Assembly: GCF_036241575.1 (NCBI RefSeq)
Contig: NZ_CP108455.1
Span: 2,680,501-2,744,500, forward strand
Length of the DNA stretch: 64,000 bases
Direction of reading: 5' to 3'
Source of the DNA: Streptomyces sp. NBC_01267
Lineage (GTDB): Bacteria > Actinomycetota > Actinomycetes > Streptomycetales > Streptomycetaceae
In this document: one piece after another, positions 25,079 to 44,417 of the stretch
Numbering within the stretch: position 1 is the first letter of the stretch
How the letters are laid out: each line of letters opens with the position of its first letter
Made by a program: the position numbers and the translations under genes
The notes under the pieces: model-generated
Database searches by the model: none
Told to the model about the DNA's origin: nothing
What the model saw: the letters and a program-made list of their open reading frames with translations, nothing else

Positions 25079-25510
25079 ATGAGCACCGTCGAACCGTCGT
25101 CGCCCGATGTCTCCGAGCGTATGAGACGTCAGCCGCGCCGGGACACCCGCCAGGAGAAGGCGGTGCGGAAGCTTCTCCATGCCTCGGGCCATCGATATCG
25201 AGTGGCATGGAAAATCCCGGACATGCCCCGGCGATCGGTCGACATCGCCTTCACACGCGCCCACGTGGCGGTGTTTCTCGACGGATGCTTCTGGCACGGC
25301 TGCCCCGAACACGCCACGCAGCCGAAGTCCAACGCAGAGTGGTGGAAGGAGAAGCTCGCCAAGAACATGGCGCGGGACAGAGACACCACTGAGCGGCTGA
25401 CCGAGTCCGGCTGGACAGTCCTGCGCTTCTGGGAGCACGAATCTCCGGCCCGGGTGGCCGAACAGGTAGCGGACATCGTCGACCGGGAGCGATCCGGGCG
25501 ACAGTCCTGA
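25079..25510 (+). CDS. vsr: Very short patch repair (Vsr) endonuclease
   Basis: 143-residue nuclease that nicks next to T:G mismatches left by deamination of 5-methylcytosine. It carries RDTRQEKAVRKLLHASGHRYRV at the start of the domain, then RSVDIAFTRAHVAVFLDGCFWHGCPEH. That segment holds the catalytic Asp of the PD-(D/E)XK-like fold and the zinc ligands (Cys, His, Cys, His), and WWKEKLAKNMARDRD and TVLRFWEHE complete the family pattern. The cytosine methyltransferase follows after 21 nt on the same transcript, as expected, because Vsr offsets mutation at methylated sites. An alternative role as the nicking nuclease of a restriction system has been suggested for such loci. Confidence 0.93.
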   Translation: MSTVEPSSPDVSERMRRQPRRDTRQEKAVRKLLHASGHRYRVAWKIPDMPRRSVDIAFTRAHVAVFLDGCFWHGCPEHATQPKSNAEWWKEKLAKNMARDRDTTERLTESGWTVLRFWEHESPARVAEQVADIVDRERSGRQS

Positions 25511-25531
25511 GTCAATACGAGGGGGAACCGA

Positions 25532-26506
25532 ATGACGAGTGCACTGCGGTTCGTAGATGTGTGCGCCGGGGCCGGTGGGCTCGCGCTGGGGCTGGAGCAA
25601 GCGGGGTTCTCACCTGCGCTGCTGCTGGACAACAAGCCGGTCGCCTGCGAGACGCTACGTATGAATCGGCCGGCATGGAACGTGGTGAGCGAGGACCTGC
25701 TCGACTTCGACCCGGCCGACCACAAGGAGGCCTACGACGTCGACCTGCTGTCCGCAGGGCTGCCCCGCGTGAAGTCGTCGGCCACTTTCAGCCGGAGTGA
25801 CAGCGAAGCGGAACGGCGACTCCTGGAAGCAACGATCTATCTGGCGCACGCCGTACAGCCACGTGCACTTCTGTTGGAGAACGTTCCGGGGCTGGCCGAC
25901 TCCCCCGCGTACGAAGATATCCGCGACTTCATCCGCGCGGAACTGACCCACCTCGGTTACCGATTCCGCTGGTTCGTACTCAACGCGGCTGATTTCGGGG
26001 TGCCCCAGGAGCGGAAGCAGGGGGTGATGGTCGCGCTCAAGAACCGCTACTTCGACGCGTTCCGGAAACCGGATCCCACAGTGCGCGAGCACGTGTCGGT
26101 GGGACGGGCGCTGCGCCGCTCCATGGCCGCACGAGGATGGCAAGGAGCCGATCACTGGGCGGCTCAAGCCCTCTCGGTGGCGCCGACGCTCGTCGGTGGG
26201 TCCGAGAACCGCGGCGGGGCGGACCTGGGGCCCACCGGTTCCAAGAAGGCCTGGGCCCGGATGAGGGTCAACGGTGGCTCCGTGGCCGACGAGGTGCCCG
26301 GTCCGACCGACGAGTGGGATCCGAACCCCGGTGCCTCAGGAATGATTAAGATCACGGACGGGCAGGCGGCCATCCTCCAGGCGTTCCCCACCGACTGGCA
26401 CTTCGCCGGCAGGAAGACTGCCCGATACCGGCAGATCGGACATGCCTCACCTCCACCGGTAGGCCGAGCCCTGGGTCTGGCAGTGGCCCAGGCCCTGCGT
26501 TCCTGA
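25532..26506 (+). CDS. C5-cytosine DNA methyltransferase homologue lacking the motif IV cysteine
   Basis: 324 residues with the order of C5-methyltransferase motifs: motif I FVDVCAGAGGLALGLEQAGF (S-adenosylmethionine), motif VI LLLENVPGL, motif VIII NAADFGVPQERKQ, and motif X RQIGHASPPPVGRALG. Motif IV, normally G-G-P-P-C-Q-x-F-S, reads AGLPRVKSSATFS. The catalytic Cys is replaced by Arg and no Cys is near. The protein is otherwise complete with no frame break. Either it belongs to a divergent clade with another mechanism, or it is an inactive partner of the intact enzyme encoded next. A GAGGGGG ribosome site precedes ATG 25532. Confidence 0.88.
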   Translation: MTSALRFVDVCAGAGGLALGLEQAGFSPALLLDNKPVACETLRMNRPAWNVVSEDLLDFDPADHKEAYDVDLLSAGLPRVKSSATFSRSDSEAERRLLEATIYLAHAVQPRALLLENVPGLADSPAYEDIRDFIRAELTHLGYRFRWFVLNAADFGVPQERKQGVMVALKNRYFDAFRKPDPTVREHVSVGRALRRSMAARGWQGADHWAAQALSVAPTLVGGSENRGGADLGPTGSKKAWARMRVNGGSVADEVPGPTDEWDPNPGASGMIKITDGQAAILQAFPTDWHFAGRKTARYRQIGHASPPPVGRALGLAVAQALRS

Positions 26507-26536
26507 TCTTGGACTGCGCCTTGGGGGCTCTGGCCG

Positions 26537-26560
26537 GTGCGATCGCACGTGCGGTCGCAC
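26537..26560. promoter_or_regulatory. Tandem 12-bp palindromes before the second methyltransferase
   Basis: GTGCGATCGCAC (26537-26548) is a perfect palindrome, followed at once by GTGCGGTCGCAC (26549-26560), which differs at one base. They end 28 nt before the methyltransferase start and overlap the expected -35 position of the TACACT -10 at 26575-26580. This looks like an operator for self-control of the methyltransferase. Confidence 0.55.
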
Positions 26561-26574
26561 CCGTCCCCGCTAGC

Positions 26575-26580
26575 TACACT
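26575..26580 (+). promoter_or_regulatory. Candidate -10 element of the second methyltransferase
   Basis: TACACT fits TAnnnT and lies 8 nt before the ATG at 26589, so the transcript would be leaderless or nearly so. No ribosome site is visible upstream of the ATG, in agreement. Confidence 0.4.
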
Positions 26581-26588
26581 TCCCTCCC

Positions 26589-27794
26589 ATGAACCACGTA
26601 CCTCAGCCACGACCACGACCTGCGGATTTCCGCATCGTGGACCTTTTTGCAGGCCCCGGTGGCCTGGATATCGGGGCCGAGGTGCTGGGTATCAAGAGCA
26701 TCGGCGTCGAGTGGGACGACGCCACTCGCGCAACCAGGGCAGCGGCAGGTCTCCGAACCACCACGGAGAAGGACGTCTCCGAGCTGGGCCCCTGTGACCC
26801 CGAGGTCGAGGACGCGAATGTCCTCACCGGTGGTCCCCCGTGCCAGACATTTTCGGTCGCGGGGAACCGCGAGGGGCACAAAGCGCTTGAGGTCGTGAAG
26901 CGTCTGGCCACACGCCTGGTGGGCCACGAAGACGCAGCCGCCTTCGAGCTCGCGTGGAAAGAGGTCAAGGCCGAGACCGACGCCATGTCCGACTCCCGCA
27001 CCGGCCTCGTACTGCAGCCACTGCGATGGATCATGGAAGCCCAGCTCAAGCGCCGGATGCCGTACGACGTCGTCGTCCTGGAGCAGGTACCGACCGTCCT
27101 GCCGGTCTGGAAGCATTACGCGCAGATCCTCAAGAAGGCCGGGTACGCCGCTGAAGCACACGTCCTGCACGCCGAGGAGTTCGGCGTCCCGCAGACCCGT
27201 CGGCGTGCGGTGCTGATCGCGCAGTACGCCCCGGGGCACGAGGACATGGCGGTCGCGTTCCCCCGCCCGACCCACCAGCGATACCGCACGGGGGTCGCTC
27301 GGCTCCCCGAGTCGGACGGACCGGACCAGCAGACACCTCTGTTCACCAACCCCGACAGTGACACGCGGATCCAACGCTGGACAGCGATGCAGGACGTCCT
27401 GCGCGAGCGGCCACGCGATTTCGAAGTGGTGTCCAACTACGGCTCGGGCGGCGATCCCAAGAAGCGTGGCCGCCGCACCTCCGAGGAGCCGGCGGCGACA
27501 GTCACCGGAAAGGTTCGACGCAACCGCGTCTTCCATCTGAAGGAAATCAAATCCGGCGCAAAGGAGATCGGCGAGGAGTTGGAACGGCTGTCGTTCGAGG
27601 AAGCCGGCCTTCTCCAGTCCTTCCCGAAGGCCTATCCCTGGCGGTCGACCGATGTGGCCCAGCAGATCGGCAACGCCATTCCCCCGCGCCTCTCTCTCCA
27701 TATCCTGAGCAGCGCACTCGGACTCGGACGGCCTGAGCCGGAGTTGTTCGAGAAGTTGAGTTCGTGGAAAAGGACACCTCCGATCCAGGACTAA
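26589..27794 (+). CDS. C5-cytosine DNA methyltransferase (catalytic motifs intact)
   Basis: 401-residue modification enzyme. Motif I IVDLFAGPGGLDIGAEVLG, motif IV LTGGPPCQTFS with the nucleophilic Cys, motif VI VVVLEQVPTV (EQV in place of the common ENV), motif VIII AEEFGVPQTRRRAVLIA, motif IX/X LLQSFPKAYPW and QQIGNAIPPRLS. A target-recognition region lies at about 215-330. The stop is 43 nt from the convergent DUF6339-like gene. Together with the upstream Vsr and the Cys-less homologue it forms the modification part of the locus. Sequence specificity cannot be read by eye. Confidence 0.93.
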   Translation: MNHVPQPRPRPADFRIVDLFAGPGGLDIGAEVLGIKSIGVEWDDATRATRAAAGLRTTTEKDVSELGPCDPEVEDANVLTGGPPCQTFSVAGNREGHKALEVVKRLATRLVGHEDAAAFELAWKEVKAETDAMSDSRTGLVLQPLRWIMEAQLKRRMPYDVVVLEQVPTVLPVWKHYAQILKKAGYAAEAHVLHAEEFGVPQTRRRAVLIAQYAPGHEDMAVAFPRPTHQRYRTGVARLPESDGPDQQTPLFTNPDSDTRIQRWTAMQDVLRERPRDFEVVSNYGSGGDPKKRGRRTSEEPAATVTGKVRRNRVFHLKEIKSGAKEIGEELERLSFEEAGLLQSFPKAYPWRSTDVAQQIGNAIPPRLSLHILSSALGLGRPEPELFEKLSSWKRTPPIQD

Positions 27795-27837
27795 CCCGAG
27801 AAACACCTGAGGCCGTGGCACCAGCGCCGTTCAGCCA

Positions 27838-28734
27838 CTACCCGGCAGGTTCCTCGGACATCTCCCTCGCTCGTGCAGACCGGGCATCAGCAAAGAGCTC
27901 CGCAAAGTGATCGGCGAGTAGAGCCACCGAGTCTTCCGGAGCCTGCTCCTCGTCCGGGCCCTCCGGAAGCTCGTGGCGGCGTACCGGCCCGGCCGACTCG
28001 GCAGCCTCGATCCACTCCCGCAGCGGCCCCCCGTCGTACATGACGTCGGGAGCGAGGACGTCGTACATGAGGGTGGCCGCCGACGTGTTGACCACCTTGG
28101 CCAAGTGGTTCACATCGCGGCCGGTACTCACGGTGCCCCGCTCGATGAGGCGCACCATCGCCTGAGCCGTGGGGCGATGATCGATGGCATCGAGCCGCAA
28201 CACGGTGTTGAACATGTCCTGCTCCTCGCAGGCGATCTCCACAGGCCGGTAGTCGGGCCCGTCACGGAAGAGTTCCGCCGCCCACCACAGCCGAGCAAAC
28301 GACTGGGTGTAGTGGGCGCCACGAAATCTGCGTGCGGCGACCGTCTGCTTCTTCCCGTCCTTGCCCTCCTGCGACATGTGGCGCCAGACCACGTAGTCGG
28401 GGGCAACACCCAACGCCAGGTAGTTCCACAGTCTGCTGTCGGCCGCCTCTCGTCGGTCGAGTCGCAGTGCCGCGTGGAGCCGAGGGGCGAGCCAGGCATC
28501 GGCCTTGGTCGGCCTGTCGTCGCGGCACTTGTGCATCACGTCGTCGATCAGGTCGCGTACCGGGCCGAGCTCCGCACGGGCTTCGCCTCCCGGCACCGGC
28601 TCAGCAATCTTGTTGAGCGCGATGGCAGGCACGTCCTCCTTGCCGGTGAGCAGCCCTTCGGTGAGGTACTGGGCAGCATTGAGGTCGGAGAGCAGTGCCA
28701 GGCGTTCGGGCAGGTGGGCCGGCTTGTCGGTCAT
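27838..28734 (-). CDS. DUF6339-like protein of the defence locus
   Basis: 298 residues, soluble, mostly helical. Distinct segments are SRLWNYLALGVAPDYVVWRH, RFRGAHYTQSFARLWWAAELFRDG and a C-terminal acidic region. I associate the W-x-Y-L-x(5)-P-D-Y-V-x-W pattern with DUF6339, whose members I recall beside C5 methyltransferases in actinomycetes; that recollection is moderate. No nuclease or nucleotide-binding motif is visible. ATG 28734 overlaps the preceding stop by 4 nt, so it is the third gene of the coupled minus-strand operon. Confidence 0.75.
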   Translation of the reverse strand: MTDKPAHLPERLALLSDLNAAQYLTEGLLTGKEDVPAIALNKIAEPVPGGEARAELGPVRDLIDDVMHKCRDDRPTKADAWLAPRLHAALRLDRREAADSRLWNYLALGVAPDYVVWRHMSQEGKDGKKQTVAARRFRGAHYTQSFARLWWAAELFRDGPDYRPVEIACEEQDMFNTVLRLDAIDHRPTAQAMVRLIERGTVSTGRDVNHLAKVVNTSAATLMYDVLAPDVMYDGGPLREWIEAAESAGPVRRHELPEGPDEEQAPEDSVALLADHFAELFADARSARAREMSEEPAG

Positions 28735-29729
28735 GCGTCGTTCTCCTGGTGGAGTCGGTCCAGGCCGCGGATGGTGGTGGACAGGGCCTTGGGCACCTCG
28801 GCCCGACGGGCGGCGGCGAAGTGGATACGCGGCTGAAGATCCGTCCATCCTGATGCGCCGGTGCGTCGCCGGTGGACCTCGCGCAGTGCCTCCTCGACAG
28901 GTCGGCCCGGCACGACATCCGGAAGCATCTCCCGAAGGACCTCGCCCCGCCAGTCATGGGGGAAGAGCGGCGTACCGTCGTCCTCGATCTCCAGGTCCCC
29001 GATGGCGGTGTGGAACACAGCGGTCCACACGTCCGTGCACATCTGGGCGAGTAGCAGGTCTCGGACCAGGCCCTCCACCGAGGAGCCGTTACCGCCGACG
29101 AGGTCGGTGATGCCCTCGAAGTCGGTGTTCACGTGCACTGCAGGCAGCCGACCGGAAGTGTCCACGACCCAGGGCACCTCCCGGAAGGGGCGAAGCCACT
29201 CCGGACCGCTTCCGAAGCCGACCTCGACCACATCGAGTTCCCGCTGCCTCAGAGGGGACTCGGCCGTCAGGTCGACAATCCACTCCTTTTCCCTCTCCGA
29301 CGACGCGATCACACGCCCTCGCACCCCGTCGACCGTGGCCACCACATGGACGGCGAGGGCCGCCCGGTCCAGATGGCTCGCACGCCACAGATCCAGGTGA
29401 CCGATCCACTGCCGCCCGCCCTCGGCCTCGGGCGCCAGACGGACAGCGACTCGTGTGTTGGTCGCCTTCTCGGTCAGTACTGCGACGACCGACACGTCGG
29501 ACCAGCAGCTGTCGGGCTCGGTGGCTTTGGCCGAAACAGTGGCCGACAGACTCAGGCGAGCACTCTCCCAGTCGTCACGCTCGCTCTGTCCGAGCGCCAC
29601 CACCTGCTCGACGACCGAAAACGCCTTGGTATCGAGTGGTTCCCGGCTCTCTCCAGGCCCCTTCAGGACCACCGATGTCACACGCAGGGACACAGCGCCG
29701 GGAAGCCGCTTGTACGGGTAGGCCCTCAT
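28731..29729 (-). CDS. Unrecognised protein of the defence locus
   Basis: 332 residues. The first half is beta-rich (ARLSLSATVSAKATEP, VVAVLTEKATNTRVAVRL, QWIGHLDLWRASHLDRAALAV), repeated in style like an immunoglobulin or jelly-roll fold. The second half is helical, with LVRDLLLAQMCTDVWTAVFHTA and an acidic ELEIEDD-like strand. No membrane segment, catalytic motif or family is evident. Its start overlaps the stop of the GHKL ATPase gene and its end overlaps the DUF6339-like start, each by 4 nt. Such strict coupling between the ATPase and DUF6339 suggests a fixed-stoichiometry complex. Confidence 0.8.
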   Translation of the reverse strand: MRAYPYKRLPGAVSLRVTSVVLKGPGESREPLDTKAFSVVEQVVALGQSERDDWESARLSLSATVSAKATEPDSCWSDVSVVAVLTEKATNTRVAVRLAPEAEGGRQWIGHLDLWRASHLDRAALAVHVVATVDGVRGRVIASSEREKEWIVDLTAESPLRQRELDVVEVGFGSGPEWLRPFREVPWVVDTSGRLPAVHVNTDFEGITDLVGGNGSSVEGLVRDLLLAQMCTDVWTAVFHTAIGDLEIEDDGTPLFPHDWRGEVLREMLPDVVPGRPVEEALREVHRRRTGASGWTDLQPRIHFAAARRAEVPKALSTTIRGLDRLHQENDA

Positions 29730-31900
29730 GCCGTGTCCTCCTTACCGGAACGGAGCTCGACGACGAGGCCGGTGAGTGTCGTCCGCACCCGGTGGGTCGA
29801 CACGTCGGTCACCCCTCGGAAGGAAGCGCGCCGCGCACCCGGCGCGAAGTGCAGTACGCCATCGATCAATTCGCAGTTGTGCACAGCGGCAAGCTCGGAC
29901 CAGGCCACCACAGGTCGGGGACCCGACCGCACGTCCAATTTGGCTACCGGTGCAAGGCGCCAGGAGTCTCCTCCAGCAGGAATCTTCACCTCTACGGACA
30001 CACACCACGCGCCGTCGGCGTCGATTCGAGCTTCCAGTTCGTCCAGTGTCGGCAGGCCGGCAGGGCCGGTGGGGCGAGTCACCTTCTTCCCACCCACGGC
30101 GAGTCGCTTGCGTAGCCGATCGGTCGTATCGCCGCCCCGCCGCTTCGCCTTGGGCAGTGTGACGAGCTCACGTACGGCTCTGTTGGTGTCACGAGTCAGC
30201 GTGGCGATCCGCCGGTACGCGGAAGGTGAGTACCGCATCCGCAATTCGTCCGTCTGTCCCCACTTGTTGTGCTCAGGAGGCTCGGAGGCCCGGAGGAACG
30301 TCTCGGCCTCGTCGGCGAACGGCGCGTCGTCGCCCGCGGCCTGTCCGGCGAGCAGAACGGCCTGGAACGGATTGGTACCCAGGGCCAGATCGGGGACCCG
30401 GCTGGTCCCGACAGTCATCCGGTTGCCTCGCATCGCCGCCACGGTGTTCGGCTTTCCGTCGGGGTCGTCCGCGTCGGTCACGAGCAGAACTGCCCGGTGC
30501 TCGCCGCCCGTCCTTCGCCCCGCGAGACCCGGCACGTTCAACGGCACTGTCGTCATGGCCACTTGCCCCGCCTCGGTCAGGCGCTCCACGGTCGCACCGT
30601 CGAGGAAGGCCTGGAGCGCACGGGTACGTGCGGGTTGTGTGACACGGGGGTCGACCCGCTCCTCAGCGATGGTCTCCACTCCGTTGCGCAGCGTCCGGAC
30701 AGATGCCTCCAGCAGAGGTCGCCCGTTGCTGCCCGTGGTCATCGCAGCCCAGAAGTTCCGTCCGAGTGCCTGGACAAGACGCTTGTGCATGCGCTGCACG
30801 CTGTCGTCGTCCTCGCCCCCGTCCTCATCCGTCGGCTTGGCTTCGGCGAGGCTTGCCACGTCGTGGGCCCCGACGATCAGGAAGGAGGTACCCGGTTCGG
30901 AGCTGTCCCGCGTGAGGTGCAGCCTCTCGACGGTCTCCTCGTCGGCCCACCACGAGCGGGCTACGTCCGCGCTGTCCGCCGAGCCGGGGTCCGGCCGCCC
31001 GAACCAGGCGGGCCCGGCCCAGGGTTCGCCGTCCACCTCACGCCACGGCAGATCGAGGCGCCCGATGAGCCGTCGTTCGGTGCGCCCTTCATGCGGCTCG
31101 GACAGGGTGGAATTCATGAGCACGAGACCGAGTCGGCTGGTCGCCCAGAGCGTGGCTTTGCCCAGACCGTACGAACCACCGGCGCCGCTCAAGGACTTGT
31201 GGCTGTCCAACTGACGTCGGACGACAGCAGCGAACCTACCGGTCTCGTAGTCGTCACCGGTCAGCCCGGAAGCGTTGTAGTCGTCGACCCGGAGCAGGAC
31301 CAACCGGTCGCGCTCGAACATGTCGCGCAACCCTGCGGCGATGACCTGTCCGACCTTCTGCTCCTGAGCAGCGGCGACCTCGTAGTGCGGGAGGAGTTCG
31401 TCCCAGCAGATCGCCTCACGGAAGCGGGCGAGCGATTCACCTGTGAGTTCGTGCAGCGTGTAGCGGACACGGACCGGCTGCGTACGGTCGAGACGTTCGT
31501 CGAGACTGTTCTGGGTGGCCTCACGGGCCAACACCCCGACATCGGCCTGGAAGGCGAAGGTCGCCGCATTGCCGTAGTCACGACCTCCGTCTGCGTATCC
31601 GGGGCGGTGGCACCAGGTGACGGGCGCGCCGGCCAGGGTGTCCGTGGTCCGCGTGTGGATCGTCCCCAGATCCGTGCCGAGGGCCGAGGCGATCTTCCTC
31701 ACGGTCTCGTCCCGAGGTCGGGCCCGTCCGGTGATCCAGGCCGAGACGGCGGCGCGAGTGACTCCCACCGATTCCGCCAACTCGGTCTGCGTCTTCCTGG
31801 CGTTCTTCAACTGGCGAGCCAGCCAGGGCCCGAAGTCTTCTCCGGCCTCCACGTTCCACCCGTTCCCGGTCGTCACCACGCTGTTCGAGGACCGGGCCAC
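29726..31900 (-). CDS. XRE-type HTH fused to a GHKL (Hsp90/MutL/MORC-like) ATPase
   Basis: 724 residues. Residues 22-80 are a Cro/C1 helix-turn-helix (LARQLKNARKTQTELAESVGV, RAAVSAWITGRARP). Then comes a GHKL ATPase: N-box REATQNSLDER (E127, N131), G1 RVDDYNASGLTG (206-214) and the G2/lid GAGGSYGLGKATLWATS (239-255). The remaining 450 residues contain beta-rich repeats, as in the transducer regions of MutL/MORC proteins, but no endonuclease motif is evident. The GTG start at 31900 follows the TGTCAATC repeats. GHKL ATPases of this kind are known from bacterial modification-dependent loci related to MORC. The HTH may let it control its own operon or find DNA. Confidence 0.85.
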   Translation of the reverse strand: MARSSNSVVTTGNGWNVEAGEDFGPWLARQLKNARKTQTELAESVGVTRAAVSAWITGRARPRDETVRKIASALGTDLGTIHTRTTDTLAGAPVTWCHRPGYADGGRDYGNAATFAFQADVGVLAREATQNSLDERLDRTQPVRVRYTLHELTGESLARFREAICWDELLPHYEVAAAQEQKVGQVIAAGLRDMFERDRLVLLRVDDYNASGLTGDDYETGRFAAVVRRQLDSHKSLSGAGGSYGLGKATLWATSRLGLVLMNSTLSEPHEGRTERRLIGRLDLPWREVDGEPWAGPAWFGRPDPGSADSADVARSWWADEETVERLHLTRDSSEPGTSFLIVGAHDVASLAEAKPTDEDGGEDDDSVQRMHKRLVQALGRNFWAAMTTGSNGRPLLEASVRTLRNGVETIAEERVDPRVTQPARTRALQAFLDGATVERLTEAGQVAMTTVPLNVPGLAGRRTGGEHRAVLLVTDADDPDGKPNTVAAMRGNRMTVGTSRVPDLALGTNPFQAVLLAGQAAGDDAPFADEAETFLRASEPPEHNKWGQTDELRMRYSPSAYRRIATLTRDTNRAVRELVTLPKAKRRGGDTTDRLRKRLAVGGKKVTRPTGPAGLPTLDELEARIDADGAWCVSVEVKIPAGGDSWRLAPVAKLDVRSGPRPVVAWSELAAVHNCELIDGVLHFAPGARRASFRGVTDVSTHRVRTTLTGLVVELRSGKEDTA

Positions 31901-31911
31901 GGTACCGCATC

Positions 31912-31949
31912 GATTGACATGACATCCAACTGTCTAACGGTGATTGACA
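31912..31949. repeat. GATTGACA direct repeats, candidate operator
   Basis: Two exact 8-bp copies at 31912-31919 and 31942-31949, start to start 30 bp, so on the same DNA face. They begin 12 nt upstream of the HTH-GHKL start and could bind its own helix-turn-helix. Confidence 0.45.
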
Positions 31950-31967
31950 GTCACTTCCCGACTCTCC

Positions 31968-32012
31968 GATTGCCCGAGTGGAAACCCATGAGGATTGCCC
32001 GAGAAAAAACCC
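31968..32012. repeat. 20-bp direct repeat in the divergent region
   Basis: Copies 31968-31987 and 31993-32012 share 17 of 20 bases (GATTGCCCGAG, three variable bases, AAACCC), start to start 25 bp. No third copy is seen, so it is not a CRISPR or iteron array. Confidence 0.55.
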
Positions 32013-32280
32013 TTATGCCCTTTATGGTCATTTCGAGTGCGAGGAAAATGAGAGACCGCATTCCGCCATTCCCTCTTGCGCCCCCCGAACACATTGGCTA
32101 GTTTCCTGGATCAACAACCCCACCCTCCACATGGGTTCGCCATTTCCGGTCCCAGTGCGTCGTATCCGTTCACCCGTGATGACGAGGGTGATCGACGCCC
32201 CTCAGGAAACACTCCCCCCACCTTCGCGTGTCTTCTGCTGCCCTGCACAAGCGTCACCCTTCCGCGAAGGCACAGTTCAC

Positions 32281-32541
32281 ATGTCTCAAATCATCGAGTC
32301 TGCGTTCCATTCCTTATGCAAGGCCGTCGCCGCGTACGACGGAGTCACGACCATTTCGATCCGGTCCGATTCCGATGACGCCCGGGGCATTCCGGGACCG
32401 GCATTCGCCGTACTTTCGACCGGAACCGGACCGACCGCCTTTGCGTCCCTGCTGACATCGTCGTGCACCTCCGACGGCGACAGGGCTGACACATCGCCCG
32501 GCCCTCTACCCCGTCCTCGTCTCTCCTGTGGTGTCTTTTGA
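32281..32541 (+). CDS. Possible small protein (uncertain)
   Basis: An 86-residue frame beginning MSQIIESAFHSLCKAVAAYDG, with GAAGG about 10 nt before the ATG. Third positions are moderately G/C biased. It contains a TTA codon near residue 12, which in Streptomyces would make translation depend on the bldA tRNA. The last 25 residues are Ser/Pro-rich and look like non-coding translation. No family is recognised. It may be leader sequence of the helicase operon instead. Confidence 0.3.
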   Translation: MSQIIESAFHSLCKAVAAYDGVTTISIRSDSDDARGIPGPAFAVLSTGTGPTAFASLLTSSCTSDGDRADTSPGPLPRPRLSCGVF

Positions 32542-35600: not shown

Positions 35601-37418
35601 CGCATCAACAATTACAGCCTGCTGCAGTGCTCCGAGTTGGAGGAAGTGCTCCGCACCCCGAACGGCATCCGGCCGACACCGCTCAGGAGCGCACTGCTGG
35701 GCACCACCGTGCTGGTGCTCACGCCCGAGGACCGGTTGTCGGCGCTCATGGCCGCGGACCTTGAACTCCGTTGGGGATTGGGCCGATCCGGATGCGAGGC
35801 GGTGTTGGCGGCGCAAGAACGACAGGAGCAGGACCAGAAGGTGCAGACCGCCCTCCGAGCTGTGCGGGAGTCCCCTGCGGTCGTGGACAAACTCCGACTT
35901 CTGCTCGGTGCGGACACCCTGCGTCGTGGGCTTCCTGCCGGCCTCCTGGAGAGCGAGCGCGCAGACCTCGACGGAGCGGACCCGTCCCCACAGCGCATCG
36001 CTCAGATGGCGTTCAACGCGCACGGCGACGGAGTACTCCAGATCCACGTGAAAGACCTGGCTGCCGCGTATCCCAGCATCGCCCCGTCGTCGTTCACCGG
36101 CGCGGGCTCTGCGATCAAGTTCATCTCGGACCTCGGCTTCCCCGATTCCTTCGCAGGTTCCCGTGCCCCCGCATTGAACCCGAAAATCGACGTGCCGGGT
36201 CCTTCCGAGTTCCCTCGTCTCCACGACTACCAGGAGCGACTCGCCACCAACGTCTTCTCCATGCTGGACCGTCTCAGCCCTCAGCGCGGGATGCTCTCCC
36301 TGCCCACGGGCGCAGGAAAGACCCGGGTCACCGCCGAAGCCGTCATCCGCTGGGTCAAGCAGAACGAAAAGCTCGACGGGCCGATCCTGTGGATCGCTCA
36401 GACGGAAGAGCTCTGCGAACAGGCCGTACAGAGCTGGCAGTTCGTGTGGTCGAAGGTAGGTGCTGAGACGGAACTGGCCATCAGCAGGTTCTGGTCGACG
36501 AACGAGGCCGGACCGGTCGAAGGGCGACCGCACCTGATCGTGGCCACGGACGCCAAACTCCGCATCAACCTCGGCACCGAGGCGTACGCCTGGCTCAGGG
36601 ACGCAGCACTGGTCATCGTGGACGAAGCACACATGGCGATCGCTCCGCAGTACACGGAGATCCTGGACCACCTCGGTCTGAATCAGTACCGCACCGACCG
36701 TCACCTGCTCGGCCTGACCGCGACGCCCTTCCGGAACACCAATGTCGACGAGACCCAGCGCCTGATCCGGAGGTTCGGTGGAAGGCGTTTGGACGAGGGC
36801 ATCTTCCTTTCGGGCGACCCTTACGACGAGCTTCAGAAATTGGGCATGCTGGCACGCGTCGAGCACCGCGAGTTGGCCGGCGGCACCATCGAGTTGACTC
36901 GGGACGAGAAGGAACGGACCGACCAGCTCAGCATCTTGTCCAAGGCCGCCGAGCAACGTCTGGCGGACGACCACGACCGAAATCGACGCATCATCGACGA
37001 GATCCGGCGTATGCCCGCCGATTGGCCGGTCCTCGTCTTCGCGACCTCCGTGAGTCACGCCAAGTTCCTGGCCGCGAAGCTCAACGACCAGCACATCTCG
37101 GCGGCCGCCGTCGATTCGGCCACCTCATCCACCGACCGGCGGAATCGGATCGCCGCGTTCCGTTCCGGCCGAACGCGGGTCCTCACCAACTACGGTGTTC
37201 TGTCCCAGGGGTTCGACGCACCGGCTACCCGGGCAGTGGTCGTCGCCCGACCGACCTACAGCCCGAATATCTACCAACAGATGATCGGCCGCGGTCTGCG
37301 CGGGCCCCGCAACGGTGGCAAGGAAACCTGCCTGATCCTGAACGTTCGTGACAACATCACCAATTACGGCAAGGCTCTCGCCTTCACCCAGTTCGAGCAC
37401 CTGTGGAGCGACAAGTGA
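32634..37418 (+). CDS. Giant fusion: sacsin-type GHKL ATPase plus SF2 DEAD/DEAH helicase
   Basis: About 1,594 residues. The N-terminal 200 residues are a sacsin/Hsp90-like GHKL ATPase: GGYGDRQLFELVQNAADE (N-box, residues about 46-63), NEGTPVTPAGAETI and GRFGVGVKSVL (about 107-118). A middle of about 1,000 residues has no recognised domain. The C-terminal 390 residues are an SF2 helicase: LPTGAGKTRV (about 1223), VDEAHMA (about 1328), GLTATPFRN, LVFATSVSHA and QMIGRGLRGPRNGG. GTG 32634 is preferred to TTG 32538 because it begins just before the first domain. It is the first gene of the four-gene operon and its stop overlaps the UvrD gene by 4 nt. Coupling of a clamp-like ATPase with a translocase suggests DNA sensing and unwinding; the activity is inferred. 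Confidence 0.88.
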   Translation: MSHALSPVIRTVIDQSARVLETYRVDPGLIPEHANGERRITQGGYGDRQLFELVQNAADEIANMPGGRVHVVLTETHLYCANEGTPVTPAGAETILRMSMSNKRGGQIGRFGVGVKSVLVVSDTPEFFSRTGCFGFDRDWAYEQIKGIPGVERLGEKFEAPVLRMARHLDEATERRKDKVLDELMGSPDTATVVRLPLLDGAAERLGQDMHALPVQQRGEDSYKPSAREGFPTGFQLFSPHVGSVTLEDRRHHPLIRRVLTTEQEGNVHTVHEERSKRQLSTSRWKVFTHTHQLTETARRSAGEMHSRVALDVSWAVPGYGHDEKSGLLTTPKGRGKFWSFFPTKYDMTLSGALNGAWKTNEDRQNLLDSSPFNEELIQVGARLVVDSLRHLVPAEDPAAYLPLLPGRPRESETVSWADRYLTGQIWSMAAQLPSLPDQNGDLCVPRDVNTHPDMGKGDASALRWLKTWNGCPGRPANWLHPSVEANTLRAGKVEHILKVANRRRATVREWLEALVANGTSEASAAAIRILADMIRVASPFAEEARKARIVLTEEHGLVPPVAGKVFRHATLDGLKDDLVYVDMRLSDDLSLSTDLATVGIREADARGRFIGVLDQGFAGYSPQDWTRFWELFHSAGSSHISGEVHSRLPTPLDTLNVRTADGRYRPMRDCMLPGPVLNGTSDPSIAVDMGFHSDDLSFFREVGLRDRPSGGYRPEGETWFDEYKEALYQSYCRKLDDRASRPLISRMKLEGAAVGGPLHLLPRMSDQARADFVKVLSDDSVVDQWTRQIGAQVATRQATASPIRWMLRRHGMVSTSQGLKRLGNAVGPQLDAYRDVLPVAAISAEKARKLGLPTTLDSVPDEHWSQLLTELLRSEDDAFVGNTYVMLTRLEVNFPEDSLTRCRVGKEWDTREDSEIAVAAGPEEYRALRAEQLPALLTAGPEDAALMVKQWGMLPFSDVVTKETRHVASGEPVPLRDEFPTLRLRLGNRINNYSLLQCSELEEVLRTPNGIRPTPLRSALLGTTVLVLTPEDRLSALMAADLELRWGLGRSGCEAVLAAQERQEQDQKVQTALRAVRESPAVVDKLRLLLGADTLRRGLPAGLLESERADLDGADPSPQRIAQMAFNAHGDGVLQIHVKDLAAAYPSIAPSSFTGAGSAIKFISDLGFPDSFAGSRAPALNPKIDVPGPSEFPRLHDYQERLATNVFSMLDRLSPQRGMLSLPTGAGKTRVTAEAVIRWVKQNEKLDGPILWIAQTEELCEQAVQSWQFVWSKVGAETELAISRFWSTNEAGPVEGRPHLIVATDAKLRINLGTEAYAWLRDAALVIVDEAHMAIAPQYTEILDHLGLNQYRTDRHLLGLTATPFRNTNVDETQRLIRRFGGRRLDEGIFLSGDPYDELQKLGMLARVEHRELAGGTIELTRDEKERTDQLSILSKAAEQRLADDHDRNRRIIDEIRRMPADWPVLVFATSVSHAKFLAAKLNDQHISAAAVDSATSSTDRRNRIAAFRSGRTRVLTNYGVLSQGFDAPATRAVVVARPTYSPNIYQQMIGRGLRGPRNGGKETCLILNVRDNITNYGKALAFTQFEHLWSDK

Positions 37419-39325
37419 CCGACCCCTTCGTCGACAGCCCGCCGCTCACCGATGAACAGCGAGCCGTCGTGGAACAGCCCTGGGACGCACGCGTCCTGGT
37501 GACCGCCGGGGCGGGTTCGGGCAAGACCCACACGCTCGTGCGGCGGCTCGACGCCCTGGTGGGTCACGAGGAAGAGGCGTTGGGGGCGGGCGAGATCCTC
37601 GTCCTCAGCTTCTCGCAGGCCGCTGTACGCGAACTCCGGCAGCGGATCTCGACGCACGGACAACGGGCCCGACGGGTGCGGGTGCAGACCTTCGATTCCT
37701 GGGCGTACGGCCTGTTGACGCAGGCGTTCCCGGACGAGGAGTGGGGCCAGTACTCGTTCGACGAGCGAATCCGTCAGGCGACCGCTGCGATCACGAAGGG
37801 TGCGGTGGAGGCGACCGAGCTCGGTGCCCCTGCCCACGTGGTGATCGACGAGGTACAGGATCTCGTCGGCGACCGTCGGAACATGGTGGAGACGCTGCTG
37901 GACCGGTTTCAGAACTCGTGCGGGTTCACCGTCGTCGGTGACTCCGCACAGTCCATCTACGGGTTCCAGATCGCCGACCTCGACGCTCGGGCCGCCGAGA
38001 CCGACTACTTCTTCGCCTGGCTGCGCACCTCGTACTTCGACGACCTCGTCGAGCTGCACCTGACGGAGAACTTCCGGGCCGACAGCGACGAAGCGAGGAC
38101 TGCGCTGCCGCTCGGCCCGGCGCTCCAACAGCTCGGTTCCGACCCGGATGGGCCGGATGCAGCGGGCGAGCGGCTGCACCGCAGGCTGCGCGATCTCCTG
38201 CACGGTCTGCCCGACCTCGGCGAGCTCGCCACCCCGTTCAATCTGGACTCGCTGAAGGCGTTCCCCGGTACCTGCGCGATCCTCACCCGCGACAACCGTC
38301 AAGCGCTGGTGGTGTCGGAGACACTGTTCACGCACGGGGTACCGCACACCCTGAAGCGTTCTCTCAGAGACCGTCCGGTGCCGTACTGGGTCGCGGAACT
38401 GCTGCGCCGCACCGAGGCATCCACCCTCGCAGAGGAGCGCTTCCGGGAGCTCCTCGCCGATATTCCGTTGCCCGAAGACGCGGAAGTGGACCGTCTGTGG
38501 CATGCACTACGTCGAGCTGCACGCGGCCCGCGCGGGTTCATCGACGTACCGCAGGTACGCAGCCTGGTGGCCGAAGGGCGGTTCCCCGACGACCTCGCGG
38601 CCTCGGAGCCGTCCCGGTTGGTCGTGTCGACAGTCCATCGTGCCAAGGGCCTGGAGTTCGATCGCGTGCTCGTCGTGACGCCTCCCTCCCTCTCCGAACT
38701 GCGCAAGCAGGGTTTGGAAGTGGACTCCGCAGCTGAGGCAAGAACCCTGTACGTCGCAATGACCCGTCCACGCGAGGACCTCTACCGGGTGGCCTGCCCG
38801 GACTCCTCGCAGGTTCGCCGACACCGTCCCACCGAACGTCTGTACATAGGTGGGTGGAAACCCCATCAGCGCTTCGGGATCGTGGCCTCGGAGTTCGACA
38901 TCAGCCGCGAGGAACCGCCGGGCGCGCACGATCCCGATGCCTCTGCACCGGTGGTACAGGACTACCTGGTGCGCAACGTCCGAGCCGGGGACGCCGTGGT
39001 CCTGCGACGCTTGCACGACATGCCGATGGGACCGGACCAGAGCCCGCCGTACACGCTCTACCACGGCGATCAACCGATCGGCGTGGCCTCCGAACAGTTC
39101 TGCAGGGACCTGCACCAGGTGGAGAAGGTCTCCCGCAACTGGGAGATCTCGTGGCCCCTGGAGATCGACGGCTTCCGGGTGAGCGCACTGGAGTCGGTGG
39201 CGGGCAGTGTCGCAGCGGGTACCGGTGCCAGGCTGGGCGGGCACGGGCTCTGGGTTGTTCCCCGGTTGTCGGGGATCGGTCGATACAGGCGCGACGCCCG
39301 CGCCGAGAAGGAGAACCAGGAATGA
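37415..39325 (+). CDS. UvrD/PcrA-like SF1 helicase
   Basis: 636-residue 3'-5' type DNA helicase. Motifs in order: I TAGAGSGKTHTLVRR, Ia LSFSQAAVRELRQR, II VIDEVQDL, III VVGDSAQSIYGFQ, IV LTENFRAD, V STVHRAKGLEFDRVLVV, VI LYVAMTRPREDLY. After about residue 480 there is an unfamiliar C-terminal domain of about 150 residues that is not typical of UvrD. It is shorter than housekeeping UvrD (about 720 residues) because domains 1B and 2B are reduced. GTG 37415 overlaps the preceding stop and its own stop overlaps the DrmA-like gene, both by 4 nt. Confidence 0.92.
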   Translation: MTDPFVDSPPLTDEQRAVVEQPWDARVLVTAGAGSGKTHTLVRRLDALVGHEEEALGAGEILVLSFSQAAVRELRQRISTHGQRARRVRVQTFDSWAYGLLTQAFPDEEWGQYSFDERIRQATAAITKGAVEATELGAPAHVVIDEVQDLVGDRRNMVETLLDRFQNSCGFTVVGDSAQSIYGFQIADLDARAAETDYFFAWLRTSYFDDLVELHLTENFRADSDEARTALPLGPALQQLGSDPDGPDAAGERLHRRLRDLLHGLPDLGELATPFNLDSLKAFPGTCAILTRDNRQALVVSETLFTHGVPHTLKRSLRDRPVPYWVAELLRRTEASTLAEERFRELLADIPLPEDAEVDRLWHALRRAARGPRGFIDVPQVRSLVAEGRFPDDLAASEPSRLVVSTVHRAKGLEFDRVLVVTPPSLSELRKQGLEVDSAAEARTLYVAMTRPREDLYRVACPDSSQVRRHRPTERLYIGGWKPHQRFGIVASEFDISREEPPGAHDPDASAPVVQDYLVRNVRAGDAVVLRRLHDMPMGPDQSPPYTLYHGDQPIGVASEQFCRDLHQVEKVSRNWEISWPLEIDGFRVSALESVAGSVAAGTGARLGGHGLWVVPRLSGIGRYRRDARAEKENQE

Positions 39326-42300
39326 CCTACGGGGGAGGGCGCCACGCCGCGCACTACCGGGCCCGCGAGGATCTCGTGGACCGGCTCCGCCGGGATCTGC
39401 TCGGTCCCGACGACGACGCGGACCGGGACGATCGTGAGGAGATCCTGACCCACGACGCGCCGATCACGAGGTACCCGATCGGTGTGCTGTTCCCACAGGC
39501 CGCGAACAAGGCCGCGAGTGAGCGGCTCACCGAGGACTACGCAAGCGAGGACGGTCTCGACGAGGCCCCCGTACTGAGCCGCGACAACATCGAGGAATCG
39601 ACTCCGAACACAGAACTACCGGCGGCAGGTGATCGAAAGCCGTCCAGTATGGGGCTCACGTTCGCGATCGATCCGGCTGTCTGCTCCGAGATCGTGGTGA
39701 CCTCGTCGGCGGCCGTGTACGACCCGATCGATGCCTCGGGCCGCCCCGTCTCCCCCCGGAGGGCAGAGGTCCGCACCACGGCCGACCAACGCGAACGCTG
39801 GCGGCGCCGGGTGCTCGATCTGCCGGCGGTCCGGATCGACATCACCCGTCCCGGCAAGTTCGGGGTGGATCCACTGGCCACCGGAGTGGAGCTGCACGTC
39901 CTGGTCCGTAGGCCGAGCCCGACGACCGGGACCGTGACGGTCACGGTGACGCTGATCAACACCAAGGTGATCGACGAGCATGCGCTCCAGGATGCCTTCG
40001 CCCTGTTCCAGCCCCGGCTGACCGTGGCCGCCGCCGACGGAACCTCGGCGTTCGTGGAACGCCCGGCCGCTCTCTCCGCTGTCGATGCCGAACTGGCCAC
40101 GAGCCGCCTGCTGCACCGACATGCCCCCACCTTCGCCGTGGGACACGGCTGCGCGGCGGCCTGGGACTGGAAGCCGCCACCGGTCGGAATCACCGATGTG
40201 GAGCGCGCCGCGATCGCCGAGGTCCGCACCGAGTTCCTGCCCACCTACGAGGTGTTGCTGACCGATTCCAACCCGGAGATCGACGCCTCGTCCCTGGCCA
40301 TGCACGACTTGGCGACACGACCGGACGCCGATGTTCTGACCGCACTGGAGAAGCTGGCACACGGATACGCGCAGTGGATCGCACGCAAGGACGCGGAAGC
40401 CACCGCGTTGGCGTCCACCTCGTACGAGAGCGCCGCGGTGGAACAGATCGCTGCCTGCCGACAGGCATTGGCGCGGATGCGCGAGGGGATCGAACTGCTC
40501 CGTGAACAGCCCGACGTGATGCGGGCGTTCCGGCTGGCCAACGAGGCGATGGCCGAGCAGCGGGCCCGTAGCGCCTGGGTGAAGGGTGGGCGTCAGGGCG
40601 ACCCCGATGTCACGGCAGGACAGTGGCGTCCCTTCCAGATCTCGTTCGTACTGCTGTGCCTGGCGGGCATCGTGGATCCGGACCATGACGACCGTCGCAT
40701 CTCGGACCTGTTGTGGTTCCCGACCGGTGGCGGTAAGACCGAGGCCTACCTCGGCCTGATTGCCTTCACCACCTTCCTTCGTCGCATGCGGAAGAAGGAA
40801 CGTGGCGCGGGCGTCACCGTACTGATGCGGTACACCCTTCGGCTTCTCACACTGCAGCAGTTCGAACGTGCCACGATCCTCATCTGCGCGATGGAGCGCA
40901 TGCGTCGGGCCGATCCTGCGCTCCTCGGCGAGGAGGAGATCTCGATCGGCATGTGGGTGGGGCGGTCCGCCACCCCCAACAAGTTGAAGGTCGCCGAGGC
41001 GAAGCTCAAGGACCTGAGAGCGCAGAAGACCCTCCAGACCGAGAACCCGGTGCAGCTCCACGCGTGTCCCTGGTGCGGTACCCCTCTCGACGCCCGGCAC
41101 TACGAGGCCGATGTGGAAGCGCGACGGATGTACGTTCGCTGCCCCGGCACGTCGTGCGAGTTCTCCAGCGGTCTGCCCGTGCACCTGGTGGACGACACGG
41201 TGTACGAAGCCCGTCCGACGCTGGTCATCGCGACCGTCGACAAGTTCGCGTCGATGCCCTGGCGGGAGCAGACCGCCGCACTGTTCAACCGCGATCGTCC
41301 CGGCGACCGCACCCCGCCCCCGGAGCTGATCGTCCAGGACGAGCTTCATCTGATCTCCGGCCCGCTCGGCACCCTGACCGGTCTGTACGAGACGGCTGTC
41401 GACGCACTGGCCGACCTACCGAAGGTCATCGCCTCCACGGCGACGATCCGTCGCGCCTCGGACCAGGGTCGGGCACTGTTCGATCGCGAGGTCCACCAGT
41501 TCCCGCCGGCCGGCCTCGATTCCCGGGATTCGTGGTTCGCGGTCGAGACACCCCGCGAGGAGAAGGCGAGCCGCCGATACGTCGGCCTGCTCACCCCTGG
41601 CACCAGCCAGTCGACTCTGCTGATCCGTACGTACGCGACTCTGCTGCACCAGGCGATGCGTACCGATACCACCGAGGACGTGCGCGACGCGTACTGGACG
41701 CTCGTCGGCTACTTCAACAGTCTGCGTCTCCTGTCCGCCGCCGAACTCCAGGTACATGACGACGTGGTGGCCTACCTGGAGTACCTGGCGGAGCGTGACG
41801 GCACGGCCGTTCGCGGTACGAGCGGCTACTCCGAGTTGACCAGCCGAATCGATGCCAGCGCGATCCCGGCCCGCCTGAAACAGATCGAGAAACGGCTCCC
41901 GGACCCGGACACCGTGGATGTCCTGCTTGCCACCAATATGATCTCGGTCGGTGTCGATGTGGACCGCCTCGGCCTGATGGCCGTCATGGGGCAGCCCCAG
42001 ACCACGGCGGAGTACATCCAGGCGACGAGCCGCGTGGGCCGTAGCCGTCCCGGCCTGGTGGCAGTCATGCTCAACTCGTCCCGGGCCCGGGACCGTTCGC
42101 ACTACGAGAACTTCCAACACTTCCACTCCGCTTTGTACCGGGAGGTGGAGTCCACGTCCGTGACACCGTTCTCCTCCCGTGCCCGTGACCGGGGTCTGCA
42201 CGCCGTCGTGGTCGCCCTGACCAGAATCCTGATCCCGGCCGCCCGCTCGAACGATGGCGCCGGTCGCATCGATACCTACCGGGACCAGCTGGACGAGCTG

Positions 42301-42570
42301 ATCAAGCCCGTGGTGATGAGTCGCGTCCGTGGCGTCGACGACGCCGAGTACGAGGCGACGTCCCAGGCCTTCGACGAATTCGTCAACTGGTGGTCCACGG
42401 AGGCCGAATACAACGGCGGCCTCTTCTACGAACCTGTGCGCGGGAAGAGGATTCCGTCCCTGCTCCGGGCCTACGACGACGAGTCGGAGGACGCCGAAGC
42501 CTGGCCGACTCTGTGGAGTCTGCGCGACGTCGACGCCGAGTCCGTCCTGTTCATGGAGGCATCCCGATGA
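39322..42570 (+). CDS. drmA: DrmA-like SF2 helicase (DISARM core family)
   Basis: 1,082 residues. The helicase core has Walker A WFPTGGGKTEAYLGL (about residue 465), motif II QDELHLISGPLGT with DELH, motif III STATIRRA, and V/VI ATNMISVGVDVDRLG with QATSRVGRSRPG. Between motifs Ia and II there is a four-cysteine zinc element (CPWCGTPL and VRCPGTSC). The first 400 residues are a domain of their own. The DELHLISGPLG form and the following DUF1998 gene match the DrmA/DrmB pair of the DISARM anti-phage system. ATG 39322 and the stop at 42570 overlap both neighbours by 4 nt. The rest of DISARM is not here, so the role must be placed in this locus. Confidence 0.87.
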   Translation: MTYGGGRHAAHYRAREDLVDRLRRDLLGPDDDADRDDREEILTHDAPITRYPIGVLFPQAANKAASERLTEDYASEDGLDEAPVLSRDNIEESTPNTELPAAGDRKPSSMGLTFAIDPAVCSEIVVTSSAAVYDPIDASGRPVSPRRAEVRTTADQRERWRRRVLDLPAVRIDITRPGKFGVDPLATGVELHVLVRRPSPTTGTVTVTVTLINTKVIDEHALQDAFALFQPRLTVAAADGTSAFVERPAALSAVDAELATSRLLHRHAPTFAVGHGCAAAWDWKPPPVGITDVERAAIAEVRTEFLPTYEVLLTDSNPEIDASSLAMHDLATRPDADVLTALEKLAHGYAQWIARKDAEATALASTSYESAAVEQIAACRQALARMREGIELLREQPDVMRAFRLANEAMAEQRARSAWVKGGRQGDPDVTAGQWRPFQISFVLLCLAGIVDPDHDDRRISDLLWFPTGGGKTEAYLGLIAFTTFLRRMRKKERGAGVTVLMRYTLRLLTLQQFERATILICAMERMRRADPALLGEEEISIGMWVGRSATPNKLKVAEAKLKDLRAQKTLQTENPVQLHACPWCGTPLDARHYEADVEARRMYVRCPGTSCEFSSGLPVHLVDDTVYEARPTLVIATVDKFASMPWREQTAALFNRDRPGDRTPPPELIVQDELHLISGPLGTLTGLYETAVDALADLPKVIASTATIRRASDQGRALFDREVHQFPPAGLDSRDSWFAVETPREEKASRRYVGLLTPGTSQSTLLIRTYATLLHQAMRTDTTEDVRDAYWTLVGYFNSLRLLSAAELQVHDDVVAYLEYLAERDGTAVRGTSGYSELTSRIDASAIPARLKQIEKRLPDPDTVDVLLATNMISVGVDVDRLGLMAVMGQPQTTAEYIQATSRVGRSRPGLVAVMLNSSRARDRSHYENFQHFHSALYREVESTSVTPFSSRARDRGLHAVVVALTRILIPAARSNDGAGRIDTYRDQLDELIKPVVMSRVRGVDDAEYEATSQAFDEFVNWWSTEAEYNGGLFYEPVRGKRIPSLLRAYDDESEDAEAWPTLWSLRDVDAESVLFMEASR

Positions 42571-44417
42571 CCCCGCCCCCCGCCCGCCGCATCCGGGCCG
42601 CCGGTGCGCCCCGCAACAATCTCCCGCGACGCGGCGCCGTACGCCGCTCGCAGATGATCACCACGTACGGCGTCGGTTCTCTGATCGCCGTCGACAACGA
42701 GTCGTTCATCGTCTCCGGCATCGACGACGCGGACCGGTCCTGGGATCGCGACGAGGCCCCGGTCATTCATGAACACCGTCTCGCCCGGGTCCTCAAGGTC
42801 GACCACTTCCGGCTGCCGCCGGCCTCGGACGATGCCAGCAAGGACGGAATACGGGTCCGTCGCTTCCCTCTCTGGCATTCCTGCCCGGAATGCGACTCGC
42901 TTCAGCACGTTCGTGACTTCAACCCACCACCTGGCAAGAACATCTGCACGGACTGCGAGGAGGACCTCGTTCCGTCCCGTTTCGTGATGGCTTGCGAGCA
43001 CGGGCACATCGACGACTTCCCGTACTGGAAGTGGGCCCACCGGCACAACCGCGAGGACGGTGGATCCGGGCACTGCGGCGGGGAGATGCGGTTGCGTACC
43101 TCGGGCCGCACCGCCTCTCTCCGCTCCATCCTGATCTCGTGCACATGCGGAGCGCCCGAAGTCTCGATGGAGGGCGCGTTCCGCCGGTCCGCCCTCGCCG
43201 ACCTCAAGGTCCGCTGCTCCGGCAAGCGCCCCTGGTTGAAGGGAGCTCCTGCGGAACACTGCGCGGAGCCCCCACGGACGCTCCAGCGAGGTTCGTCCAT
43301 CGTCTGGCAGCCGATCCTCAAGTCCGCGCTGTCCATTCCCCCCTACAGCGGTGGACTCGCAGCCGATCTCGACGGTCATTGGCAGAACCTGCGCGGATTC
43401 TCGAATCCCGGCGAGATTGCGGGCTATCTCAAGGGTGCCTTCAACGGGAAGAAGGTTCCTTCTCTGGACGCTGTACTCGAACTGCTCGCGGCGGAGAATC
43501 ACGAGGAAGCCGCCACCCCTGACGAAAGCCGCGGGCAGGACGGCCCCTATCTCGCTCTCCGCCGTCAGGAGTACGCGCGGCTCTGTGACGGGAACTCCGA
43601 GCGGGCACAGGACCGTGCAGAACAGTTCATCTGTGAAGAACCGGCAACCGACTCCTCGTTCCTGCGTCCTCTCGGCCTCGATACCCCCATGCTGGTCAAA
43701 CGACTGCGTGAGGTGCGAGCCCTGAAGGCCTTCTCCCGGGTAACCGTCCCCGAGGCCAACCTCGAAGTCCATGAGGCGGCGTTGTCCTTGAAGCCGACGA
43801 ACTGGCTTCCCGCGATGGAGGTCCACGGCGAGGGAGTATTCGTCCGACTCGACGAGGAGCGCTTGGACAAGTGGGCCGCCTCGGTGGCAGTCGCCGCACG
43901 CGCGGACCGGATTCACGCCAACCACCAGCGCGCCCTGCGCGAACGTGCGTCCGATCCACAGCAGGTGCCCGACTCCCCCGCGTCTCCCCGCATGGTGCTC
44001 CTGCATTCGCTGGCGCATGCACTGATCAATGAATGGAGTCTGGACGCGGGCTACCCTGCGTCTTCACTCCGCGAGCGCCTGTACGCGGACGACTCGATGG
44101 CCGGTCTGTTGATCTACACCGCGACCAGCGACTCAGCGGGAAGCCTCGGTGGTGTCGTGGCACAGGGCGAACCGGATCGTCTGTCGAAAGCTCTCCGGGC
44201 AGCGATGCGCCGAGCCGAATGGTGCTCTGCCGACCCGCTGTGCATCGAGACGGAGGCCACCGGAACCAGCAGCACCAATCTCGCCGCCTGTCACGGCTGC
44301 ATGATGCTCCCCGAGACGAGTTGCGAGCACAACAACGGTCTCCTGGACAGAGCCCTTCTGATCGGGACCCCGGAGGACCCCGCCATCGGGTTCTTCCACA
44401 ACGCACTGGCCCTGTGA
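42567..44417 (+). CDS. drmB: DrmB-like DUF1998 protein
   Basis: 616 residues. It starts with an Arg-rich tail and the conserved MITTYGVGSLIAV (about residue 29). Zinc-type cysteines follow: WHSCPECDSLQHV, NICTDCEED, then MACEHGHIDDFPYWKW. The C-terminal DUF1998 region has VLLHSLAHALINEWSLDAGYP, SLRERLY, AGLLIYTATSDSAGSLGG and AACHGCMMLPETSCEHNNGLLDR with further cysteines. DUF1998 proteins act with DrmA-type helicases; in DISARM, DrmAB forms a DNA-bound complex. It is the last gene of the operon, 9 nt from the convergent ATP-binding protein stop. Confidence 0.88.
   Translation: MTPPPARRIRAAGAPRNNLPRRGAVRRSQMITTYGVGSLIAVDNESFIVSGIDDADRSWDRDEAPVIHEHRLARVLKVDHFRLPPASDDASKDGIRVRRFPLWHSCPECDSLQHVRDFNPPPGKNICTDCEEDLVPSRFVMACEHGHIDDFPYWKWAHRHNREDGGSGHCGGEMRLRTSGRTASLRSILISCTCGAPEVSMEGAFRRSALADLKVRCSGKRPWLKGAPAEHCAEPPRTLQRGSSIVWQPILKSALSIPPYSGGLAADLDGHWQNLRGFSNPGEIAGYLKGAFNGKKVPSLDAVLELLAAENHEEAATPDESRGQDGPYLALRRQEYARLCDGNSERAQDRAEQFICEEPATDSSFLRPLGLDTPMLVKRLREVRALKAFSRVTVPEANLEVHEAALSLKPTNWLPAMEVHGEGVFVRLDEERLDKWAASVAVAARADRIHANHQRALRERASDPQQVPDSPASPRMVLLHSLAHALINEWSLDAGYPASSLRERLYADDSMAGLLIYTATSDSAGSLGGVVAQGEPDRLSKALRAAMRRAEWCSADPLCIETEATGTSSTNLAACHGCMMLPETSCEHNNGLLDRALLIGTPEDPAIGFFHNALAL

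Follow-up and report, generated by a model that had tools for sequence, protein, structure and literature searches.

Do the genes for a Vsr-family endonuclease, cytosine-5 (C5) methyltransferases, GHKL ATPases and helicases that lie side by side in one Streptomyces genome belong to a single system, and what would that system do? The genes occupy part of a 64,000-nucleotide stretch from Streptomyces sp. NBC_01267 (contig NZ_CP108455.1, positions 2,680,501 to 2,744,500; hereafter the window), in which an original prediction had seen a separate system against foreign DNA, with C5 methylation as the self mark and helicases and GHKL switches as the working parts; this reading is partly supported by what follows. 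We think it probable, with some reservation, that the ten genes listed below form one modular anti-foreign-DNA system, in which DISARM components (DrmA-DrmB) are combined with an MZA/paraMORC-type restriction module consisting of A-B-C and a Vsr/C5-methylase cassette. The locus looks like a variant joining parts of two known systems, DISARM and MZA, and our search of the literature available to us found no publication describing it. The predicted genes are all present as open frames, from vsr at 25079 to DrmB at 44417:

25079..25510, + strand: vsr, a Vsr-family endonuclease (TIGR00632, 119 bits against a cut-off of 97.85; PDB 1cw0, E 3.7e-15).
25532..26506, + strand: M1, a C5-methyltransferase homologue predicted to be non-catalytic (PF00145, 5.7e-42; PCQ changed to PRV).
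26589..27794, + strand: M2, a C5-methyltransferase with intact PPCQ and EQV as motif VI (PF00145, 1.8e-30).
27838..28734, - strand: C, a DUF6339 protein (PF19866, 1.9e-15; structure model with a predicted local distance difference test score, pLDDT, of 93.5).
28731..29729, - strand: B, modelled as an Ig-like beta sandwich with a helical C-terminal domain (pLDDT 88.4, predicted template-modelling score 0.57; fold searches).
29726..31900, - strand: A, an XRE-type helix-turn-helix (HTH) domain with a GHKL (MORC/MutL-like) ATPase (HTH_3, 2.5e-12; PDC-M33A, 5.6e-22).
31905..31955, no strand assigned: TTGAC/GTCAA repeats that resemble an operator and lie immediately upstream of A; the window copy is degenerate.
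About 32634..37418, + strand: G, a sacsin/Tiamat-like GHKL domain fused to a RadD-like superfamily 2 (SF2) helicase (P_loop_sacsin, 67 bits against a cut-off of 50); its start codon is uncertain, TTG 32538 or GTG 32634.
37403..39325, + strand: U, a UvrD/GajB-like superfamily 1 helicase whose C-terminal extension is about 170 residues long (PF00580, 3.9e-27; GajB models).
39322..42570, + strand: DrmA, the DISARM SF2 helicase (NF038325, 1026 bits against a cut-off of 950; PDB 7s9v DrmA, E 1.3e-172).
42567..44417, + strand: DrmB, the DUF1998/MZB protein of DISARM (NF038324, 481 bits against a cut-off of 240; PDB 7s9v_B, E 5.7e-80).
45279..46127, + strand: a downstream XRE-DUF5753 regulator whose membership of the locus is uncertain (DUF5753, 2.9e-54).

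That the genes form a unit is indicated by relatives of the locus. A scan with an alignment of G, one genome per species and the best 80 of 124 kept, gave 79 loci; these sample genomes that hold G, and most show only about 2 kb to the left of vsr. By tblastn, C, G and U are present in all 79, A, B and DrmA in 78 each and DrmB in 77; M1 is found in 76 and M2 in 74 (counts that cross-matches between the two may inflate) and vsr in 67. One of the three upstream transporter genes is weakly matched in 4/79 loci, and tblastn gave no match for the other two. A synteny survey, which the prediction had called for, finds the complete C-B-A/G-U-DrmA-DrmB set in 76/79 loci, in identical order and on identical strands in 76/76; the remaining three either stop at contig edges (L006 and L051) or are without A and B (L061). 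Denominators vary here and below because frames shorter than about 70-80% of the window copy were dropped from the order, motif, correlation and alignment counts. The order vsr-M1-M2 on the + strand is kept in 54 of the 63 loci that hold vsr, M1, M2 and C, and the hosts include Streptomyces, Kitasatospora, Actinomadura, Nonomuraea and Amycolatopsis. Within a genus sample of 150 genomes, full-length G and DrmA (at least 54% identity) share the same 24 genomes, 23 of which also have A; within a phylum sample of 296, G occurs in four, and the window's own genome is counted in both samples. The 4-nt overlap that had been claimed for every operon holds for A/B, B/C, U/DrmA and DrmA/DrmB, but G and U overlap by 16 nt (4 nt if U begins at GTG 37415), and vsr, M1 and M2 do not overlap.

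Not all ten genes travel equally closely. Across the 58 rows that hold all ten genes, identities between pairs correlate at 0.93-0.96 within G-U-DrmA-DrmB and at 0.77-0.91 between C-B-A and this quartet, whereas vsr and M1 correlate with the seven core genes at 0.40-0.64 and M2 with all other genes at a rho of 0.22-0.37. Positive correlations are expected from shared ancestry alone, and the contrast between genes is the informative part: it shows the seven genes travelling as a set and M2 being swapped, which is how a specificity module should behave. At the level of sequence, these comparisons establish C-B-A/G-U-DrmA-DrmB as a fixed, co-varying core and the methylase cassette, M2 above all, as a part swapped between loci. 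They also bear on the best-surviving alternative, in which two independent systems happen to lie next to each other, one a DISARM-like quartet (G-U-DrmA-DrmB), the other a paraMORC/MZA-type module (vsr-M1-M2-C-B-A). This is a serious possibility, albeit an unlikely one, given the shared order and strand in 76/76 loci, how tightly C-B-A co-varies with the quartet, and the presence of A in 23/24 genus genomes with full-length G.

Within the swapped cassette, both predicted C5-methyltransferase homologues are present, but there is one plausible methylase instead of two because M1 is without the catalytic Cys. M1 appears to be a dead METHYLTRANSFERASE, with PRV standing where the PCQ motif is expected (an alignment with DNMT1 is among the evidence). 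The Cys is absent in 120/120 M1 homologues listed, of 5611 found; across 77 locus rows the residue there is R 74 times, S twice and P once; and 11/11 M1 proteins from other architectures are without it. These other-architecture loci were hand-picked from the genus-sample scans and include all nine genomes with A and without G, and the Cys counts leave out 12 weaker M1-like matches (41-46% identity) among 52 genomes. M1 is accordingly predicted to be non-catalytic, and its N-terminal part and recognition region are equally conserved at 0.70, compared with 0.46 for the recognition region of M2 (all with approximate boundaries). M2 keeps its catalytic Cys in 70/75 rows, the other five being gaps, and is likely an active, host-marking methylase. 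The GCFWHGC motif is intact in the window Vsr and present in 63/66 relatives long enough to show it.

In the A-B-C module, A keeps the motifs of its ATP site (N-box in 76/76 loci, GGSYGLGK in 74/76). A related architecture has C and M1 joined in one fusion protein, with the N-terminal part of which hhalign aligns C at 97.5% probability (E 5.3e-12). B has no family match in Pfam, PADLOC or NCBIfam. Upstream of A the hexamer TTTGAC/GTCAAA occurs 1.37 times per 300 bp in 78 loci, compared with 0.035 in the loci overall and no more than 0.06 ahead of any of the nine remaining genes, and 34/78 loci have two or more copies upstream of A. We read these repeats as a putative operator for the HTH domain of A itself. 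As a separate observation, 3/32 genus copies of A (G040, G044, G139) have one in-frame stop inside the match.

How far, then, is the locus simply DISARM? The prediction's "DrmA-like" and "DrmB-like" identified both proteins correctly and were too cautious, as the NCBIfam cut-offs for the DISARM families are passed. DISARM class 1 consists of DrmD-DrmMI-DrmA-DrmB-DrmC. DrmA and DrmB of the locus are members of the same families, and methylase and helicase partners are common to both, but the locus instead has a C5-methylase pair with a dead member, Vsr, the GHKL-helicase G, the UvrD-like U and A-B-C. The helicase part of G matches RadD (6jde, E 5e-20), and its N-terminal part matches TmtA, which we take to be the protein of the Tiamat system, at 1.9e-46 over residues 43-524 of the 1626-residue frame only; the N-terminal GHKL parts are alike, and G additionally ends in a RadD-like helicase and lies in an operon. 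U keeps its Walker motifs in 76/76 loci. As predicted, no DrmC, DrmD or DrmE was found: no DrmC match is shown for nine locus proteins, and DrmD, DrmE and DrmMI are absent from the matches shown (best 25 families per protein) and from NCBIfam at 1e-5. M1 and M2 do match DrmMII models (2e-25 and 3.5e-20), and match other methylase models far better. The locus could be an unusual DISARM subtype in which G and U replace DrmD and DrmC, with A-B-C and the methylase genes as accessory regulators; DrmA and DrmB, above the DISARM cut-offs and matching the DISARM structure 7s9v, speak for it. We judge this unlikely: DrmC is missing from the locus and, by a single DrmC model (PDLC02613), from the genome, where PLD domains occur elsewhere; A-B-C is more constant than the methylase genes; and a tree that covers 12/79 loci, 13 other sequences and the window, and has three long branches, sets the DrmA clade apart from DrmA of a same-genus DISARM class 1 locus with 100/100 support.

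Vsr is the only nuclease of the locus recognised by these searches. Pfam, PADLOC and NCBIfam gave no other nuclease-family match except cross-matches of the helicase and methylase parts, and the structure models, made for B and C only, have no nuclease among the fold matches listed.

MZA shares its GHKL theme with the locus, but A differs from MzaB (PDC-M33A match). The MutL-like GHKL protein MzaB was not found in the window by tblastn with two MzaB relatives, a DUF4420 nuclease of the MzaD type is missing from the window locus, and no sigma match occurs among the locus proteins, nor does tblastn of the sigma region find one in the window. Elsewhere, an MzaA sigma-factor protein occurs together with A in three loci (L087, L088 and L089); in another mixture of MZA and DISARM (L095), a 1271-residue MzaA-like protein with sigma-70 regions directly precedes DrmA-DrmB; and an AIPR protein of the MzaE type is seen in L109. 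MORC/paraMORC operons have a GHKL ATPase, an SF2 helicase, a C5 methylase and Vsr in common with the locus, whereas DrmA/DUF1998, UvrD operon partners and an inactive methylase are not described in the excerpts of that account available to us (PMC2292703). ARMADA, as excerpted (PMC12458937), likewise combines a YprA-family helicase with a GajB-like UvrD; its YprA carries a fused DUF1998, however, whereas the locus encodes DrmA and DrmB separately, and it has no PglX-like protein among the matches shown and no BrxHII, a BrxH model reaching only 9e-4 on the helicase part of G. One related locus (L107) resembles ARMADA with G added: a G homologue (49%) shares an operon with a UvrD, an Eco57I-type methylase and a YprA-type helicase of 2238 residues that carries MZB. 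The window locus joins DISARM and MZA, usually treated apart, via a shared GHKL/methylase module.

How might these parts work together? In E. coli, Vsr introduces nicks next to T:G within Dcm sites, assisted by MutL and UvrD. A parallel with Vsr, MutL and UvrD has been drawn for GHKL restriction operons in the available part of Iyer 2008 (PMC2292703). Excerpted work on DISARM has DrmAB binding 5'-overhang single strands, methylation thought to curb it and DrmC dispensable, and a Caulobacter Vsr-like protein is described, in the portion available, as triggering a DNA-damage response in the absence of its methylase (PMC12907096). Because of these precedents we propose Vsr nicking, gating by A and G and helicase unwinding. 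M2 would methylate host DNA as the self mark, and M1 with C would act as a non-catalytic DNA reader. Vsr would nick DNA without the right mark, in a manner resembling very-short-patch repair, with the GHKL ATPases A and G acting as clamps or switches gated by ATP, a role that MutL plays alongside Vsr. U, G and DrmAB might then engage the DNA at the nick or an overhang and unwind it, either blocking it or laying it open to nucleases, and host nucleases or an unrecognised domain would complete its destruction. A would use the TTTGAC repeats to repress the operon to which it belongs. The component parts are there in the sequence; the steps between them are what we infer.

A more specific and rather doubtful version is a "weaponised" very-short-patch repair. 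M1 and C would scan DNA by a fixed target-recognition domain and report methylation or S-adenosylmethionine state, Vsr would make a licensing nick, and MutL-like GHKL clamps would pass the DNA to UvrD/DISARM-type helicases; swapping M2 would alter the self mark while the reader/effector core stayed constant. 

The natural module swaps among loci offer material for separating methylation-sensing from DNA-destroying parts, and the conserved inactive methyltransferase suggests that bacteria may read DNA through a base-flipping fold that has lost its modifying activity.

Several points weigh against one ten-gene defence system. The defence role is itself deduced from relationship to known systems. 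C-B-A is not obligatory in distant relatives: one genome (G095) has G-U-DrmA and no A at 1e-30, a second locus (L091) comprises vsr-M1-M2, a distant G and DrmA-DrmB with C, B and A absent, and in a third (L106) vsr stands with an NgoMIV-type restriction pair, G-U-DrmA-DrmB and a NERD-UvrD, again with A, B and C absent. Vsr may be dispensable, since tblastn did not detect it in 12/79 loci. M1 is unlikely to read the mark of M2 directly, because its recognition region is constant, that of M2 varies, and the identities of the two correlate weakly (0.36). Finally, some of the putative operator signal may instead come from a -35 box of a promoter.

That the genes are instead a DNA-repair locus, an extended very-short-patch repair guarding 5-methylcytosine sites, is highly improbable: every type of part is there (Vsr, Dcm-like M2, MutL-like A, UvrD-like U, RadD-like G, MrfA-like DrmAB) and the available portion of the Caulobacter study links a Vsr protein functionally to a methylase (PMC12907096), but the distribution is patchy (24/150 genomes), the flanks vary, the genes are closely related to those of DISARM, MZA, Tiamat and GajB, and the conserved dead methylase is left unexplained.

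The surroundings of the locus offer some further observations. The host genome is 8.07 Mb, and the G+C fraction is 0.63-0.68 across 24-48 kb of the window compared with 0.68-0.74 in the rest. To the left of vsr, one gene family lies directly adjacent in 15/70 loci (L006, L021, L031, L034 and others); three copies shown have 335-357 residues, one ending in a SEC-C-like motif, and the family possibly marks a shared insertion site. In a set of 20 left flanks, that of G017 has nothing past vsr and that of G139 only about 3.4 kb. The XRE-DUF5753 regulator has a tblastn match in 36/79 loci; in 25 of these the identity reaches 60% or more, and every one of the 25 lies to the right of the locus. Among the matches listed, copies elsewhere in 21 relatives do not exceed 45% identity, and the regulator also lies near two variant loci (L091 and L097).
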